From contig NZ_CP031310.1 of the NCBI RefSeq assembly GCF_004799665.1, forward strand, positions 550,887 to 614,886: a stretch of 64,000 nucleotides of DNA. The letters run 5' to 3'. The position numbers and the translations under genes were made by a program. Numbering within the stretch: the first letter of the stretch is position 1; each line of letters starts with the position of its first letter. The stretch comes from Halapricum salinum (GTDB taxonomy: Archaea; Halobacteriota; Halobacteria; Halobacteriales; Haloarculaceae). The notes under the pieces are model-generated. The model searched no databases and had not been told where the DNA came from. It worked only from the letters and a program-made list of their open reading frames with translations. Of this stretch, positions 52,019 to 56,900 are shown piece by piece.

Positions 52019-52043
52019 AAGGGGATGTTTTAATACCCCCCTT
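52019..52043 (+). promoter_or_regulatory. Inverted repeat around the TATA box of the 52073 gene
   Basis: AAGGGG (52019-52024) and CCCCTT (52038-52043) flank the TATA-like TTTTAATACC (52028-52037), with the ATG at 52073 about 36 nt downstream. A protein bound to such a site would cover the TATA box. The preceding 51778-52018 is a gene-free stretch with several short GACCAACCG- or ACAACCGAC-like motifs (for example near 51875, 51905 and 51987). Confidence 0.45.
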
Positions 52044-52072: not shown

Positions 52073-53620
52073 ATGGGATCGCAAGGTGTCGACGACGAAG
52101 CGGCCGCTCGTGAACGGATCGCAGCACTCGTCCGCTCGCCCGCCGAGAGCCGTCGTCTCCTCCCGGGAGTGGTCGGACTGCTCGAAGCCGAGGACGACCA
52201 TCTCAGGCTCAGTGCCGCCTGTGGCATCTGTCTGGCAGGCCGTGCCGACCCTGAGCTGTTGCCGTATCTGATCCGTCGCCTTCTCAACCGGCTCCACGCC
52301 GATTCGGTCCGCGCTGAGGCGATGTTCGCCTTCGAGTATCTGGCCTCACAGTTTCCCGAAGAAGTCGACGAAATCGTCGACGAGCTACGCGAGGAGAACG
52401 ACGGACGCGAACCGCTGTCGTACGCCCGGCCCGGCGGATTCCGGCGGAGCCACATCTACTCGCCGTCGAGCAATCGACACGACGTCGGCCGGACACGCCT
52501 CGCGGGCGACCGTCGAGACCCCGGCCCCCAACAAGTCTACAACGACGACGGCGAGCCGGTCAAACGCCAGCCCGGCCCGAAAACGGCCGCCGAAGAAGGC
52601 GCGCATGAGACTGACGACGACGAATCCGACCCAGACACGAGCGCTGACGAGGAGTCCAGCACAGACGCGACAGATGACGACACAGCGACGCCGGAAGCGC
52701 CCGACGGGCAGTCAGGCGGAGTCCACGCTTCCCCGGACGAGCGTCCAGACTGGATACTAGACGAAGAGACACTAGAAGCGATTCTCGCCGAAAGCGCCTT
52801 CGAAGACATCACGATTCTCGCGGGGCACGAACAGGGCCTATTTTCCGAGAACTACCGAACGCTGGCTGTCGCCCGCGGGACCGAACGTGCAACGGCGCTG
52901 CGACTGTTTCGCCAGCCTGAGTCGAACACCGACGGCTTCGAGCGGTATCTCTCGGTCGCGCTCGACCGGTGGAACCGGGTCAGCGCAGCCAGCAACGTCA
53001 TCTCACTGTACGATTACGGGCAGCGACCACAGCCGTGGGCTGCCGTCGCCTACACCGAACAGACGCTGGCCGATCGCGACCGGCTCCCGATCGGCGAGGC
53101 GCTCTGGAACGCGATTACACTCACGCGGACGGTCGAGACGCTACACGACAACAACGTGATTCACGGCGGCCTCGATCCGGGTAGCATCGCCTACACTGGT
53201 GCGATCATGGACGAGAACGAACGCCTGACGCCGCTGATCGATCACGTCGGACTTATCGAAGCGTTTCGCTTTCACTTCGACCCCTCCGAGTATCTCGATC
53301 CACGGTACGCCGCTCCGGAGTACTTCGACGCCACGTTCGGCGAGATCGACCACGCGACGGATATCTACCAGCTCGGGGCGATCCTGTACCGACTCTTTAC
53401 CGGGGAGGCCCCCTACGACGGGGACGACCGTCCCGTTCAGCGACAGATACTCGAAGGGTCCGCTGTGGCTCCGTCCGAGCAGGTCGAAACGGTTCCCCGG
53501 TCGGTCGACAACGTCATCTCGAAAGCGATGGCCGCCCAGAAGCTCACGCGGTACGAGACAGTAGCGCACCTGGAGCAAGATTTACTGCAACTGCGCGACC
53601 ATCTGGTGACAGATGGCTAG
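52073..53620 (+). CDS. HEAT-repeat protein with C-terminal pseudokinase domain
   Basis: The 515-aa protein has a HEAT-like helical N-terminus (about 10-110; RRLLPGVVGLLEAEDDHLRLSAACGICLAGRADPELL), an acidic disordered linker (about 150-230) and a protein-kinase-fold domain (about 240-515). In the kinase fold the key residues are lost: the beta-3 lysine is Arg (ALRLF, about 275-279), the HRD motif reads HGG (364-366, VIHGGLDPGSI) and DFG reads DHV (390-392), while the APEYF and HATDIYQLGAILYRLFTGEAPY landmarks are kept. It is therefore a pseudokinase, likely a scaffold or allosteric sensor. It overlaps the next membrane-protein gene by 8 bp. Confidence 0.85.
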   Translation: MGSQGVDDEAAARERIAALVRSPAESRRLLPGVVGLLEAEDDHLRLSAACGICLAGRADPELLPYLIRRLLNRLHADSVRAEAMFAFEYLASQFPEEVDEIVDELREENDGREPLSYARPGGFRRSHIYSPSSNRHDVGRTRLAGDRRDPGPQQVYNDDGEPVKRQPGPKTAAEEGAHETDDDESDPDTSADEESSTDATDDDTATPEAPDGQSGGVHASPDERPDWILDEETLEAILAESAFEDITILAGHEQGLFSENYRTLAVARGTERATALRLFRQPESNTDGFERYLSVALDRWNRVSAASNVISLYDYGQRPQPWAAVAYTEQTLADRDRLPIGEALWNAITLTRTVETLHDNNVIHGGLDPGSIAYTGAIMDENERLTPLIDHVGLIEAFRFHFDPSEYLDPRYAAPEYFDATFGEIDHATDIYQLGAILYRLFTGEAPYDGDDRPVQRQILEGSAVAPSEQVETVPRSVDNVISKAMAAQKLTRYETVAHLEQDLLQLRDHLVTDG

Positions 53621-54347
53621 TGAGTGGCTCGGCCTCAACGAGATTGCCGGCAGTGCGAATTTTACGTTCGTGGCGTTCATCACCTACGTCCTCCTGACCG
53701 TGATCGGCCTCCGGTTCGGCCTCTATGCCTACTGGAACGGCCGAGCCACCGAGTCCGACGCCCAGATCACGCTGTGGGGCTATCTCCTCTTCATCGGGGT
53801 TGCCGCGATTCTGTCCGGCGTGGTGGGCATCCTCAGGATCGTCCTCCGCGTCTTCGGCGACGTCTTGCTCAACCTCGTCGGGGGGTTCATACTGGTCATG
53901 GTCCTGTGTCTCGTGCTCGCGCTCCGGGCGGTGTACATCAGCAGCAGCGGAGTTTCGGCACCGAGCGACCGACTCCTGATCGGCGTCTTCGTGGTCGCGG
54001 TCGCGGTCTCGACGCTCGGGATGCTCGCACTCGATTCGATGCGAACGCCCTTCGCGGGACTCCAGGGAGCGACCGGGGTGGCGCTCCTGGCCTACGGCTA
54101 TCGGTTCGGCTCGCGCCAGCTCGCGAACACCCGCGTCCAGGGGACGCTGCTCGATACCCTCCTGCGCCACCTGCTCCCCGTGCTGTTGTTCGGGTCGATG
54201 ATTCCCGTCTCGGAGCTTGCGGTCGTCGCCGGACTGGATCGAGCGATCGTCCTGCACGTCCAGATTGTCTTCGTCATCATGACCGCGACGACGTTGATGA
54301 CGGCGACGATCAAACTCCGGCAGAACCTCGTCGGGATGGGCGGTTAG
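53613..54347 (+). CDS. Polytopic membrane protein coupled to the pseudokinase
   Basis: The 244-aa protein has about seven hydrophobic segments (about 16-40, 50-74, 80-108, 118-140, 145-162, 180-205, 212-236) with conserved charged residues in loops. It is not recognised as a transporter family. The 8-bp overlap with the preceding pseudokinase gene means the two are translationally coupled and probably act together. Confidence 0.75.
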   Translation: MASEWLGLNEIAGSANFTFVAFITYVLLTVIGLRFGLYAYWNGRATESDAQITLWGYLLFIGVAAILSGVVGILRIVLRVFGDVLLNLVGGFILVMVLCLVLALRAVYISSSGVSAPSDRLLIGVFVVAVAVSTLGMLALDSMRTPFAGLQGATGVALLAYGYRFGSRQLANTRVQGTLLDTLLRHLLPVLLFGSMIPVSELAVVAGLDRAIVLHVQIVFVIMTATTLMTATIKLRQNLVGMGG

Positions 54348-55006
54348 TCCAGACAGGCCGCCGGCTCCTCGGCGATGATCCCGTCGACGCCCATCTTCTC
54401 GTACTCGCGGGCCTTCTCGGGATCGCTGACCGTCCAGACGTTGACGTTCAGGTCCGAGCGGTGGGCCCGTTCGAGCAGCGCGAAATCGACCAGCCGCCAG
54501 TGAGGGTGGATGGCCGCACAGTCGAGACTGGCCGCGCGTTCGATCCCCGCCTCAGAAGAGGAATCGACCAAGAGTGCGCGATCGACGTCCGGGTCGGCCT
54601 CCCGGGCAGCCCCCAGGGCGTCGATATCGCGTGAGGACAGCAGAATCTCGGTGTCGAAGTCGCTAGTGAGATCGATCACCGACTCGACCAGGTCGCGCTC
54701 TTTAAGATCGATGTTGAGCCCGACGCCGTCAGGCATAGCCCGGAGGACGGCTTCCAGCGACGGGACGCCCTCACCCGTGCCGAGGACGTCCATCGACTGT
54801 AGCGTCGCCAGCGAGATGTCCGCGACGGGTCCAGTCTCGTCGGTCACGCGGTCGACCATCTCGTCGTGGATGACGACCGGATCGCCCGAGCGACACTGCC
54901 GGACGTCCACCTCGATCATGTCCGCCTGCTGGCCGGCCTGTCGCACCGCTGTCAGTGTGTTCTCCGGATACAGCCCCGCGAAGCCGCGATGGGCGATACA
55001 GCGCAT
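54344..55006 (-). CDS. Glycerophosphodiester phosphodiesterase
   Basis: The 220-aa protein is a GDPD: MRCIAHRGFAGLYPENTLTAV (1-21) contains the catalytic HR and the ENT motif, IEVDVRQCRSGDPVVIHDEMVDRVT carries the metal-binding Glu and Asp and the His-Asp pair, and the last part has VNVWTVSDPEKAREYEKMGVDGIIAEEP. It hydrolyses glycerophosphodiesters released from lipid turnover. There is no signal peptide. It is convergent with the membrane-protein gene (4-bp overlap). Confidence 0.92.
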   Translation of the reverse strand: MRCIAHRGFAGLYPENTLTAVRQAGQQADMIEVDVRQCRSGDPVVIHDEMVDRVTDETGPVADISLATLQSMDVLGTGEGVPSLEAVLRAMPDGVGLNIDLKERDLVESVIDLTSDFDTEILLSSRDIDALGAAREADPDVDRALLVDSSSEAGIERAASLDCAAIHPHWRLVDFALLERAHRSDLNVNVWTVSDPEKAREYEKMGVDGIIAEEPAACLD

Positions 55007-55151: not shown

Positions 55152-56900
55152 ATGAGATATGAAGATATATTCACTTCTGGAAGCACAATTACAGAGCCCT
55201 ACCAGACTGGCGATTCGTTAGTGTGTACTTTCCAGACAGGCGATAGTATATACTCGATAGATAGTCAGACTGGTGAAAAAAATGGGGTAGCAAATCAATT
55301 GGGCGAGCTTACCACTAGTTTTCGGTATCAGGGAACTGTGTACGTCGGAACAAACAGTGGAAATGCGTATGCGATAGATGCGAACACAGGCAATAAGCAA
55401 TGGTCCTACACGGAACCAGCGAATCGGATTTTTGTATACCCGCCTTATCTAAATGATAATATACCTATATTTAGTTCAAACACTTTGTACATTGTTGATC
55501 GGAGGACAGGGACAGAGCAATGGCAATGGGCTAATACGAACGGGGGTAGCTGGTTCCCCGATAATGACACAGTATACATTGGTGATAATAATCTATATGC
55601 AGTCGACGCAACAACAGGCGCAGAACAGTGGACTTATGAAGAACCACTTGGCCCCATTGGACAAATTGAGGTAGTGAACGGAACTGTCTACGTAGAGGAT
55701 GATGTACATGTTTTGTATGCAGTGAATGCAACGTCCGGCACTGAAGAGTGGAGATATGACGTCTCAAACGATTTTCTCATTGATGGATTTGATGAGGAGT
55801 CTGGAATTCTCTATTTTGTTACTCTCCCCGACGATAGCCAACATGACGTATATGCCATTGATATGGCCGATGGCTCAGAATTGTGGGCTGCTGATGGATC
55901 AGGTCAGGCTCAATTGCGAGGGATTGTCAATGGAGCGTCATATCTGACTATTGATGGCATGGTATTGGCTGTGGATGGAAAGACGGGTAATATTCAATGG
56001 ACCTACTCGAAGCCCAGTGCGGATGTAATCTTTGGCGAAGATCATATCACTAACGGAACAGTATATATGGATGATAACAGTAATGTGTATGCAGTAGATG
56101 CAGAGACAGGGAATGAACGGTGGGTTTATACTGGACTTAGTGATAGTGGGAGTAGTTACATTAGAGAAGTTACTAACGAAACAGTATACGTCGAGGAGAA
56201 TGTTGATAACAGTGAAAACGCTTATGCAGTGGACGCAGAGTCTGGAAACGAACAGTGGTCTGTCACTGGATCAAGTGATGCTTCGATTGGCACGGTAATT
56301 AATGGATTTGCATATGTAAGTCTCGATGAAATTGTATTCAAGATTGCTCCAGATCAAGACCCAAGTTGGTCATATACTGCTTCAAATGAACCGTCCGCCG
56401 TTGACGTCGTAGACGGGACTGTTTATATTCGCGATAATGGAACTGATTCGGACAGCTATCTATATGCAGTGAACGCAGAAACGGGCAACGAAGAGTGGAA
56501 CTATGGCATCCTCAGTGAATTCATAAATAATGTAAATATCAAACCAATAATCACTAATGAGGGAATTTCTGTGAATTCTAACGGCGATATTATACAAACT
56601 GGTGGACAGGCAACGATAGATATTTCAGCACTACAAGTGAACGAAATTGAAATTGAAGGTCTTTGGACTGACTGGGATAGCTTAGTCAATAAAAATCTGG
56701 ATGGTGGGACTGCAAACAATAACATAGCAAATGATGGTATCTTTAGGATTGAATGGGGCAGCACTCAAGGAGAAGTGACGCCGTCAATAGTTATTGCACC
56801 ACCACAGGACACCTATATTGGTGGTGAATACGTAGTGACAGTTACCGGAACGGATGGAACGAACTCTGACACCGATGAAGCGATCATCGAGATCGCGTAA
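55152..56900 (+). CDS. AT-rich PQQ-like repeat protein of probable foreign origin
   Basis: The 582-aa protein is a beta-propeller with about ten PQQ-like blades, each ending xxAVDAETGNExWxY or similar (AIDANTGNKQW, IVDRRTGTEQW, AVDATTGAEQW, AVNATSGTEEW, AVDGKTGNIQW, AVDAETGNERW, AVDAESGNEQW, AVNAETGNEEW), followed by a C-terminal Ig-like beta-sandwich (about 490-582, EIEIEGLWTDWDS ... YVVTVTGTDGTNSDTDEAIIEIA) like the domains at the ends of haloarchaeal surface proteins. It is clearly AT-richer than its neighbours and uses codons rare elsewhere here. No signal peptide is visible, so the exported form is unclear; an N-terminal truncation is possible. An AT-rich promoter (TATAAAAT near 55111) precedes it. 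Confidence 0.8.
   Translation: MRYEDIFTSGSTITEPYQTGDSLVCTFQTGDSIYSIDSQTGEKNGVANQLGELTTSFRYQGTVYVGTNSGNAYAIDANTGNKQWSYTEPANRIFVYPPYLNDNIPIFSSNTLYIVDRRTGTEQWQWANTNGGSWFPDNDTVYIGDNNLYAVDATTGAEQWTYEEPLGPIGQIEVVNGTVYVEDDVHVLYAVNATSGTEEWRYDVSNDFLIDGFDEESGILYFVTLPDDSQHDVYAIDMADGSELWAADGSGQAQLRGIVNGASYLTIDGMVLAVDGKTGNIQWTYSKPSADVIFGEDHITNGTVYMDDNSNVYAVDAETGNERWVYTGLSDSGSSYIREVTNETVYVEENVDNSENAYAVDAESGNEQWSVTGSSDASIGTVINGFAYVSLDEIVFKIAPDQDPSWSYTASNEPSAVDVVDGTVYIRDNGTDSDSYLYAVNAETGNEEWNYGILSEFINNVNIKPIITNEGISVNSNGDIIQTGGQATIDISALQVNEIEIEGLWTDWDSLVNKNLDGGTANNNIANDGIFRIEWGSTQGEVTPSIVIAPPQDTYIGGEYVVTVTGTDGTNSDTDEAIIEIA

Follow-up and report, generated by a model that had tools for sequence, protein, structure and literature searches.

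In this study, we identified in Halapricum salinum a pair of overlapping genes, one for a pseudokinase with HEAT-like helices and the other for a seven-helix membrane protein, that has been kept together in several families of Halobacteria. The pairing, the gene overlap, the loss of catalytic residues, the membrane topology and the folds of the models were all established by computation. We infer, with a probability of about 0.5, that the two genes make up one unit, in which a receptor-like seven-transmembrane (7TM) protein would do the sensing and would be in contact with a pseudokinase adaptor. The pair lies in a 64,000-nt stretch of DNA (the window; positions 550887-614886 of the 3.45 Mb single-contig chromosome, G000 C1), in which the following features were distinguished.

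52028..52035, + strand: TTTTAATA, candidate TATA box about 40 bp ahead of the first ATG (by eye)
52073..53620, + strand: HEAT-pseudokinase gene, 515 aa, ATG start (ORF, Pfam, PknB alignment, AlphaFold model)
52082..52396, + strand: HEAT/ARM-like helical block, residues 4-108 (six helices in the model; relatives pass Pfam cut-offs)
52403..52762, + strand: low-confidence linker of acidic composition, residues 111-230 (pLDDT mostly <50 in 118-224; D+E 24%)
52763..53614, + strand: catalytically degenerate kinase-fold domain, residues 231-514 (structure match, best Z 28.9)
52901..52903, + strand: Arg277 at the beta-3 Lys position (PknB alignment, family counts)
53162..53185, + strand: HGGLDPGS (residues 364-371) replacing HRDxKxxN (PknB alignment, family counts)
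53243..53245, + strand: His391 at the DFG-Asp position (PknB alignment, family counts)
53613..53620, + strand: 8-bp gene overlap, the second gene's ATG lying within the 3' end of the first gene (ORF list, sequence)
53613..54347, + strand: seven-helix membrane protein gene, 244 aa, ATG start; N-out/C-in, GPCR-like bundle in the model
54344..55006, - strand: GDPD (glycerophosphodiester phosphodiesterase family) gene, convergent, a conserved downstream neighbour outside the proposed unit

The first of these may be a TATA box, judged by the motif and position usual in haloarchaea. The 8-bp overlap, already pointed out in an earlier note on this DNA, is exact (ORFs 52073-53620 and 53613-54347).

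A kinase fold without its catalytic residues

In the AlphaFold model of the first protein, six N-terminal helices (residues 4-108) are followed by a low-confidence stretch (118-224) and then by a kinase fold (231-514), most blocks of which have pLDDT values above 90. The best structural match of the kinase fold had a Z score of 28.9 (9ymt; 258 residues aligned, rmsd 2.6), Stk1/PknB gave Z scores of 28-29, and a 13-sequence profile retrieved PknB at E 5e-30. The Pfam Pkinase match of the window protein (E 2.5e-7) covers only part of the kinase domain, residues 338-495, and at 30.8 bits falls just under the cut-off of 31.7. The HEAT label leans on relatives, because the N-terminal block of the window sequence alone yields only E 0.3 against HEAT_EZ in Pfam; in distant partners the block at the same position passes the Pfam cut-offs (HEAT_2 in L103, 38.6 versus 27.7 bits; Arm in L112, 27.0 bits against a cut-off of 20.6). 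Asp and Glu make up 24% of the linker (residues 111-230). The fusion of HEAT-like helices and a disordered acidic linker to a kinase fold, as the earlier note had it, stands on the six helices, the pLDDT values and this composition. One paired kinase-fold gene (L085, 5083-5952) lacks the HEAT block and linker and starts just ahead of the kinase domain.

Alignment of the window protein with PknB placed Arg277 at the beta-3 Lys, Gly366 at the HRD Asp, Asp368 at the catalytic-loop Lys and His391 at the DFG Asp. These positions were counted in 51 deduplicated paired kinases, comprising 35 from the window's family and 16 from other families. Neither the HRD Asp nor the catalytic-loop Lys is kept in a single one (0/35 and 0/16 for each), and the beta-3 Lys is kept in 0/35 and, elsewhere, in 3/16, with 3 gaps. 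The Asp of the DFG column is retained in 6/35 of the window's family and 9/16 elsewhere; most relatives have Asn in this column, where the window protein has H391. The Asp that replaces the catalytic-loop Lys (Asp368) is kept in 34/35 of the window's family and 3/16 elsewhere. The APE Glu, the helix-F Asp and the helix-I Arg are present in every paired kinase (35/35 and 16/16). Constancy of these residues together with disappearance of the catalytic ones suggests selection on the structural core but none on the catalytic residues, and the family-wide counts, taken with a clade separate from intact kinases (see below), indicate that the loss did not come about by chance. By its modelled fold and its aligned residues, the protein is a Hanks-type pseudokinase. 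Since the DFG Asp survives in a minority of the window's family and in over half of the others, some of these kinase-fold proteins may still bind metal or nucleotide, to judge from their sequences.

Much of this had been anticipated: the replacement of the beta-3 Lys by Arg and of the HRD Asp in an HGG motif proved correct (R277, G366), as did the persistence of structural motifs (APE Glu, helix-F Asp and helix-I Arg in 51/51). Of the claim that the DFG motif reads DHV, the loss of the Asp from its column holds; the residue in the DFG-Asp column is H391, however, and D390 of 'LIDHVGL' precedes it by one position.

The retained DFG Asp residues (6/35 and 9/16) could also be taken to mean that the kinase-fold protein is an enzyme of non-canonical chemistry (e.g., nucleotidylation) acting on the membrane protein, and pseudokinases with other transferase chemistry are known, SidJ being one named in a review (PMC12599244). 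We regard this as highly improbable: across families, no other residue that might take over catalysis is conserved (Asp368 is found in 34/35 of the window's family versus 3/16 elsewhere), the beta-3 Lys has mostly gone and the HRD Asp always.

Pairing and descent

After deduplication, 52 of the 55 loci with the membrane gene (35/37 for the window's family, 17/18 for other families) had the kinase-fold gene directly upstream and on its strand. Loci of other families were picked among the 69 genomes, out of 194, that gave a match, with three others added; L055, L059, L060, L063, L066, L099 and L118 were excluded as duplicates or near-copies, L101 was too short to be counted, and L110, in which the 3' end of the kinase gene lies at the contig edge, was counted as paired and is absent from the motif table. 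The unpaired loci are two from Halovenus (L080, L083) and L067, in whose genome a kinase relative lies about 92 kb off on the same contig. Of 26 named paired loci, 23 show an overlap of 1-11 bp between the two genes and the other three have gaps of 3, 3 and 57 bp, figures that depend on the start codons we chose. A search of 392 genomes of the phylum gave 27 matches, all from the same order, and no homologue outside it; among the genomes searched, the unit is restricted to Halobacteria.

Relatives with intact catalytic motifs (HLDLKPxN, DWG and the beta-3 Lys) do occur in Halobacteria, the nearest being L021, L023 and L024. In a 69-row kinase tree, in which rows with long branches are placed unsurely, one branch (support 100/99) splits all 51 paired kinases from these three. 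When the membrane gene was looked for in the genomes of the intact kinases, G028 and G036 gave no match, and in G032 it adjoins a different kinase-fold gene, not the intact relative. Six unpaired pseudokinase rows are nested within the paired clade and a seventh (L070) falls in the same open fork; for five of these seven paralogues (L068-L072), no membrane gene was found within 18-20 kb. The position of the unpaired pseudokinases within the paired clade suggests that the pair probably arose once and that some copies later lost their neighbour.

Close relatives with intact HRD and DFG motifs, and a lack of conserved pairing with the membrane gene, were named in the earlier note as evidence that would tell against it. 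Neither appeared: the pairing is conserved in 52 of the 55 loci, the HRD Asp is found in 0/51 paired homologues, and the intact kinases branch off as a clade of their own that lacks the membrane gene. Conserved pairing, universal loss of the HRD Asp and a separate intact clade together indicate that, at the level of sequence, this is an inherited pseudokinase/membrane pair, and that it does not represent the decay of a gene within an accessory patch.

A partner of receptor-like shape

The AlphaFold model of the 244-aa membrane protein consists of seven long helices (mean pLDDT 92), so that separate modelling of the two proteins, which the earlier note had proposed, gave a kinase fold with a helical block and a seven-helix bundle. 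The loops and tail assigned to the inside carry 2.0-3.0 K+R each, versus 0.2-0.7 for those outside, indicating an N-out/C-in topology. The chain ends after helix 7, at residue 244, with no fused histidine kinase output. Over the 55 loci, W55, G162 and T178 are near-invariant (55/55 each), and R105, where helix 3 ends on the cytoplasmic side, and D181 are conserved in 53/55 and 51/55. A conserved cytoplasmic docking face was also looked for, and the inner half of the helices was no more conserved than the outer (p 0.32).

The assignment to no known family also holds. The window protein matched no Pfam family, with only scattered weak matches among 16 members, and no NCBIfam model; 21 members gave six scattered NCBIfam matches, taken as chance, the best of them (3.9e-5) to a mitochondrial import receptor model. 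A profile search of the PDB gave 0 matches at E<=1. Foldseek E-values of the model were weak (best 3.6e-3), and the best 50 matches listed were all GPCRs, rhodopsins or adiponectin receptors. The best 50 matches from VIA ran from Z 17.5 (8jgf_R; 215 residues aligned, rmsd 4.2) down to 15.4 at rank 50, all of them GPCRs but for one designed soluble GPCR-like fold (8oyy_B, Z 17.0), and are to be read against VIA's own warning that unrelated helical bundles reach Z of about 13-14; the absence of a family from the VIA list does not count against that family. We describe the protein as a receptor-like 7TM bundle by the shape of its model, not by homology to GPCRs.

Two named families were considered. 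The protein is not a microbial rhodopsin: there was no PF01036 match in 16 members and helix 7 has no retinal Lys midway along its length, K234 lying at the cytoplasmic end of that helix and being Arg in many relatives. Nor is it a demonstrable homologue of HisKA_7TM, which gave no Pfam match and hhalign probabilities of 3-12% in comparisons made with 8 and then 34 sequences (one of 35 was removed by a stop/hydrophobicity filter); the weak collinear match of the family to PF16927 (183 columns, P 0.014, probability only 3%) is suggestive at best. A sister 7TM family in other haloarchaea (L120, L121 and L146-L154, with L120 and L154 the same gene) was set apart from the counts and has a kinase-fold neighbour in 0/9 loci. 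A conserved EGT...TRHLLP-like motif marks its members (L146-L154), as does the tail IRQQ..E...D.TTWR.

It is conceivable, if somewhat unlikely, that the membrane protein is no signalling receptor at all, and instead a transporter, channel or lipid enzyme with the HEAT-pseudokinase as its regulatory or assembly subunit. The lack of a Pfam family or real NCBIfam match would fit, as would the conserved polar residues in or near the helices (W55, R105, T178, D181), and the GDPD-family gene that frequently lies downstream might point to lipid metabolism. With adiponectin receptors being enzymes, the structure matches are compatible with an enzyme too. However, the best 50 Foldseek matches listed include no transporter apart from rhodopsins, and the best 50 from VIA are GPCRs and the one designed GPCR-like fold.

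Genes around the pair

An HtrII-like transducer is the divergent adjacent gene in 29/37 loci of the window's family and in 0/18 of the others, with sensory rhodopsin II (SRII) behind HtrII wherever the DNA reached far enough. Neighbouring genes were clustered with a composition filter from rough gene calls, and an apparent conserved block emerged, comprising TFB, SRII, HtrII, the pair and then GDPD or an oxidoreductase/SDR. In the window, the upstream side of the pair lacks the HtrII/SRII operon.

This neighbourhood raises the question of whether the pair serves blue-light phototaxis as an accessory that works with the complex encoded by the divergent HtrII/SRII genes, for instance by tuning or docking to an HtrII array. 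The adjacency in 29/37 loci, the domains of the neighbours (Bac_rhodopsin, E 3.4e-54; MCPsignal/HAMP) and the retention of HtrII-SRII elsewhere in the window genome (L122) speak for such a role. On the other hand, adjacency is absent from all 18 loci of other families, the wider block may be plain inherited gene order, and in the window genome the pair and HtrII/SRII lie about 600 kb apart. The two modules also come apart in other genomes: six SRII-HtrII loci from genomes without the membrane gene (L123-L128) have neither gene of the pair nearby, and L123, read gene by gene, has the rest of the block without the pair, while L061 and L093 have TFB and the pair but no HtrII. As the modules were lost independently of one another, a role in phototaxis is only possible, and we consider it unlikely.

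In 21 loci, that of the window among them, the membrane gene is followed by a GDPD gene, which is convergent in 20. This conserved neighbour and the age of the unit, which is common to several families, leave the idea of an accessory patch unsupported. The possible operator of the earlier note fared no better, as the region holds nothing beyond a 9-bp direct repeat and, some 220-270 bp upstream, an imperfect inverted repeat (8 of 9 bp), neither of them outstanding. A defence system was considered and rejected: PADLOC gave only kinase-wide matches (PD-T4-6, MkoA, PglW) and none for the membrane protein, NCBIfam cross-matches to MAD6/PknB were far below the cut-offs, and no defence genes were present among the neighbouring genes examined.

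How the pair may work

Under our preferred reading of a receptor-like protein with a pseudokinase adaptor, the 7TM protein, with its N terminus outside and C terminus inside, would act as a sensor or receptor-like input. Its cytosolic partner, which appears to have lost the chemistry of phosphotransfer and kept the structural core, would dock through the kinase fold on the cytoplasmic face of the 7TM protein, and a protein further downstream would be held by its HEAT block and acidic linker. In this way, changes in the 7TM bundle would be relayed by conformation, not by phosphorylation. The scaffold function and the contact between the two proteins are what we infer here. Over 29 loci, the correlation of kinase (K) and 7TM (TM) distances given HtrII was 0.245, with 1 of 2000 permutations as high, which speaks for a single unit. 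Against it count the stronger correlation of K and HtrII given TM (0.491), the unpaired pseudokinase paralogues, the three membrane genes without an adjacent kinase and the 0/9 of the sister 7TM family; against docking on the cytoplasmic face counts the conservation of that half of the helices, no higher than that of the outer half; against a receptor count the weak Foldseek E-values and the general resemblance of seven-helix bundles to one another. A still wider proposal, doubtful though possible, is that Halobacteria have a GPCR-like system of their own, a small family of 7TM receptors each produced with a dead-kinase adaptor that would read the cytoplasmic face through its shape and not through phosphorylation. 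Such a system would date back to the split of the haloarchaeal families and, in Haloarculaceae, be wired beside SRII/HtrII.

Eukaryotic pseudokinase scaffolds have been studied in depth, and the cataloguing of bacterial ones is under way. SCYL1, VPS15 and STRAD-MO25 are eukaryotic scaffolds that combine a pseudokinase with HEAT/ARM helical repeats, so that HEAT-pseudokinase scaffolds as such are known, and a scaffold role for the present protein would be in line with them. However, the kinase domain of SCYL1 and VPS15 is N-terminal, whereas here the HEAT block (4-108) precedes the kinase fold (231-514), and none of the three is known to have a coupled 7TM partner gene. The membrane protein resembles GPCRs in fold only, by its seven helices, N-out/C-in topology and the order and packing of helices in the model (Z 17.5); unlike them, it has no detectable sequence similarity (0 PDB profile matches at E<=1) and no helix 8 in the model, and a G protein is not expected. 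With SRII/HtrII the pair would share the plan of a seven-helix signalling system with a separate transducer, and the two adjoin in relatives, but there is no sequence similarity (hhalign P 0.14) and the 7TM protein lacks the retinal lysine in mid-helix 7. HisKA_7TM (PF16927), a haloarchaeal 7TM sensor to which the profile match is weak, differs by the fused histidine kinase that is missing here.

Bacterial membrane pseudokinase scaffolds are likewise known: the review describes membrane-tied pseudokinases of the STK type, the MviN pseudokinase domain with FhaA (ActPs3) and EssB/YukC (PMC12599244). Like these (PMC12599244), the present protein has a kinase fold with degraded VAIK, HRD and DFG motifs and, if our reading is right, a scaffold role at the membrane. 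In MviN and EssB/YukC, however, the pseudokinase forms part of the membrane chain (PMC12599244), whereas the archaeal system has a separate soluble HEAT fusion paired with a 7TM protein. The terms HEAT and Halobacteria have 0 occurrences in the main text of that review. A literature search at the level of listings and the starts of abstracts found no pseudokinase scaffold described for haloarchaea and no paper on the pair, and neither the domain order, the 7TM partner nor the lineage was found there. As the conserved pair occurs in genetically tractable Haloarcula/Halapricum relatives, it offers a testbed for kinase-fold signalling without catalysis, and it could reveal whether receptors of GPCR shape that work with protein adaptors have also evolved outside the eukaryotes.

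Further observations

In one other family (L067 and L102-L106), the membrane gene is followed at a distance of 0.3-2.3 kb, on its own strand, by a receiver-domain response regulator in 5/6 loci (L067, L102, L103, L104 and L106), a loose hint of signalling. The SRII and HtrII genes of the window genome are near the start of the contig (G000:C1 2169-5209, L122), about 600 kb from the pair, and adjoin an apparent SecY/ribosomal protein operon. Two genes downstream of the pair is a PQQ/BamB-like beta-propeller gene (window 55152-56900).

Kinase-fold genes are clustered densely at G028:C2 27861-119637 and G032:C1 1466792-1497968. Of the kinases with intact catalytic motifs, L021 lies elsewhere in G028, and L023, which carries repeats resembling a PQQ propeller, lies within the G032 cluster. 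The window genome itself has a second pseudokinase-like domain (HGSLSPTD, DEWG) at L003 1264-3429 (G000:C1, about 2.52 Mb), followed on the same chain by SBP_bac_5, an extracellular solute-binding protein domain. At L001 1-2220 (G000:C1, about 0.415 Mb), a kinase-like domain (HGNLTDET, DDWG) is C-terminal to DUF7282 and CARDB, an arrangement that looks as though the kinase-like domain were on the inside, on a membrane-anchored surface protein.
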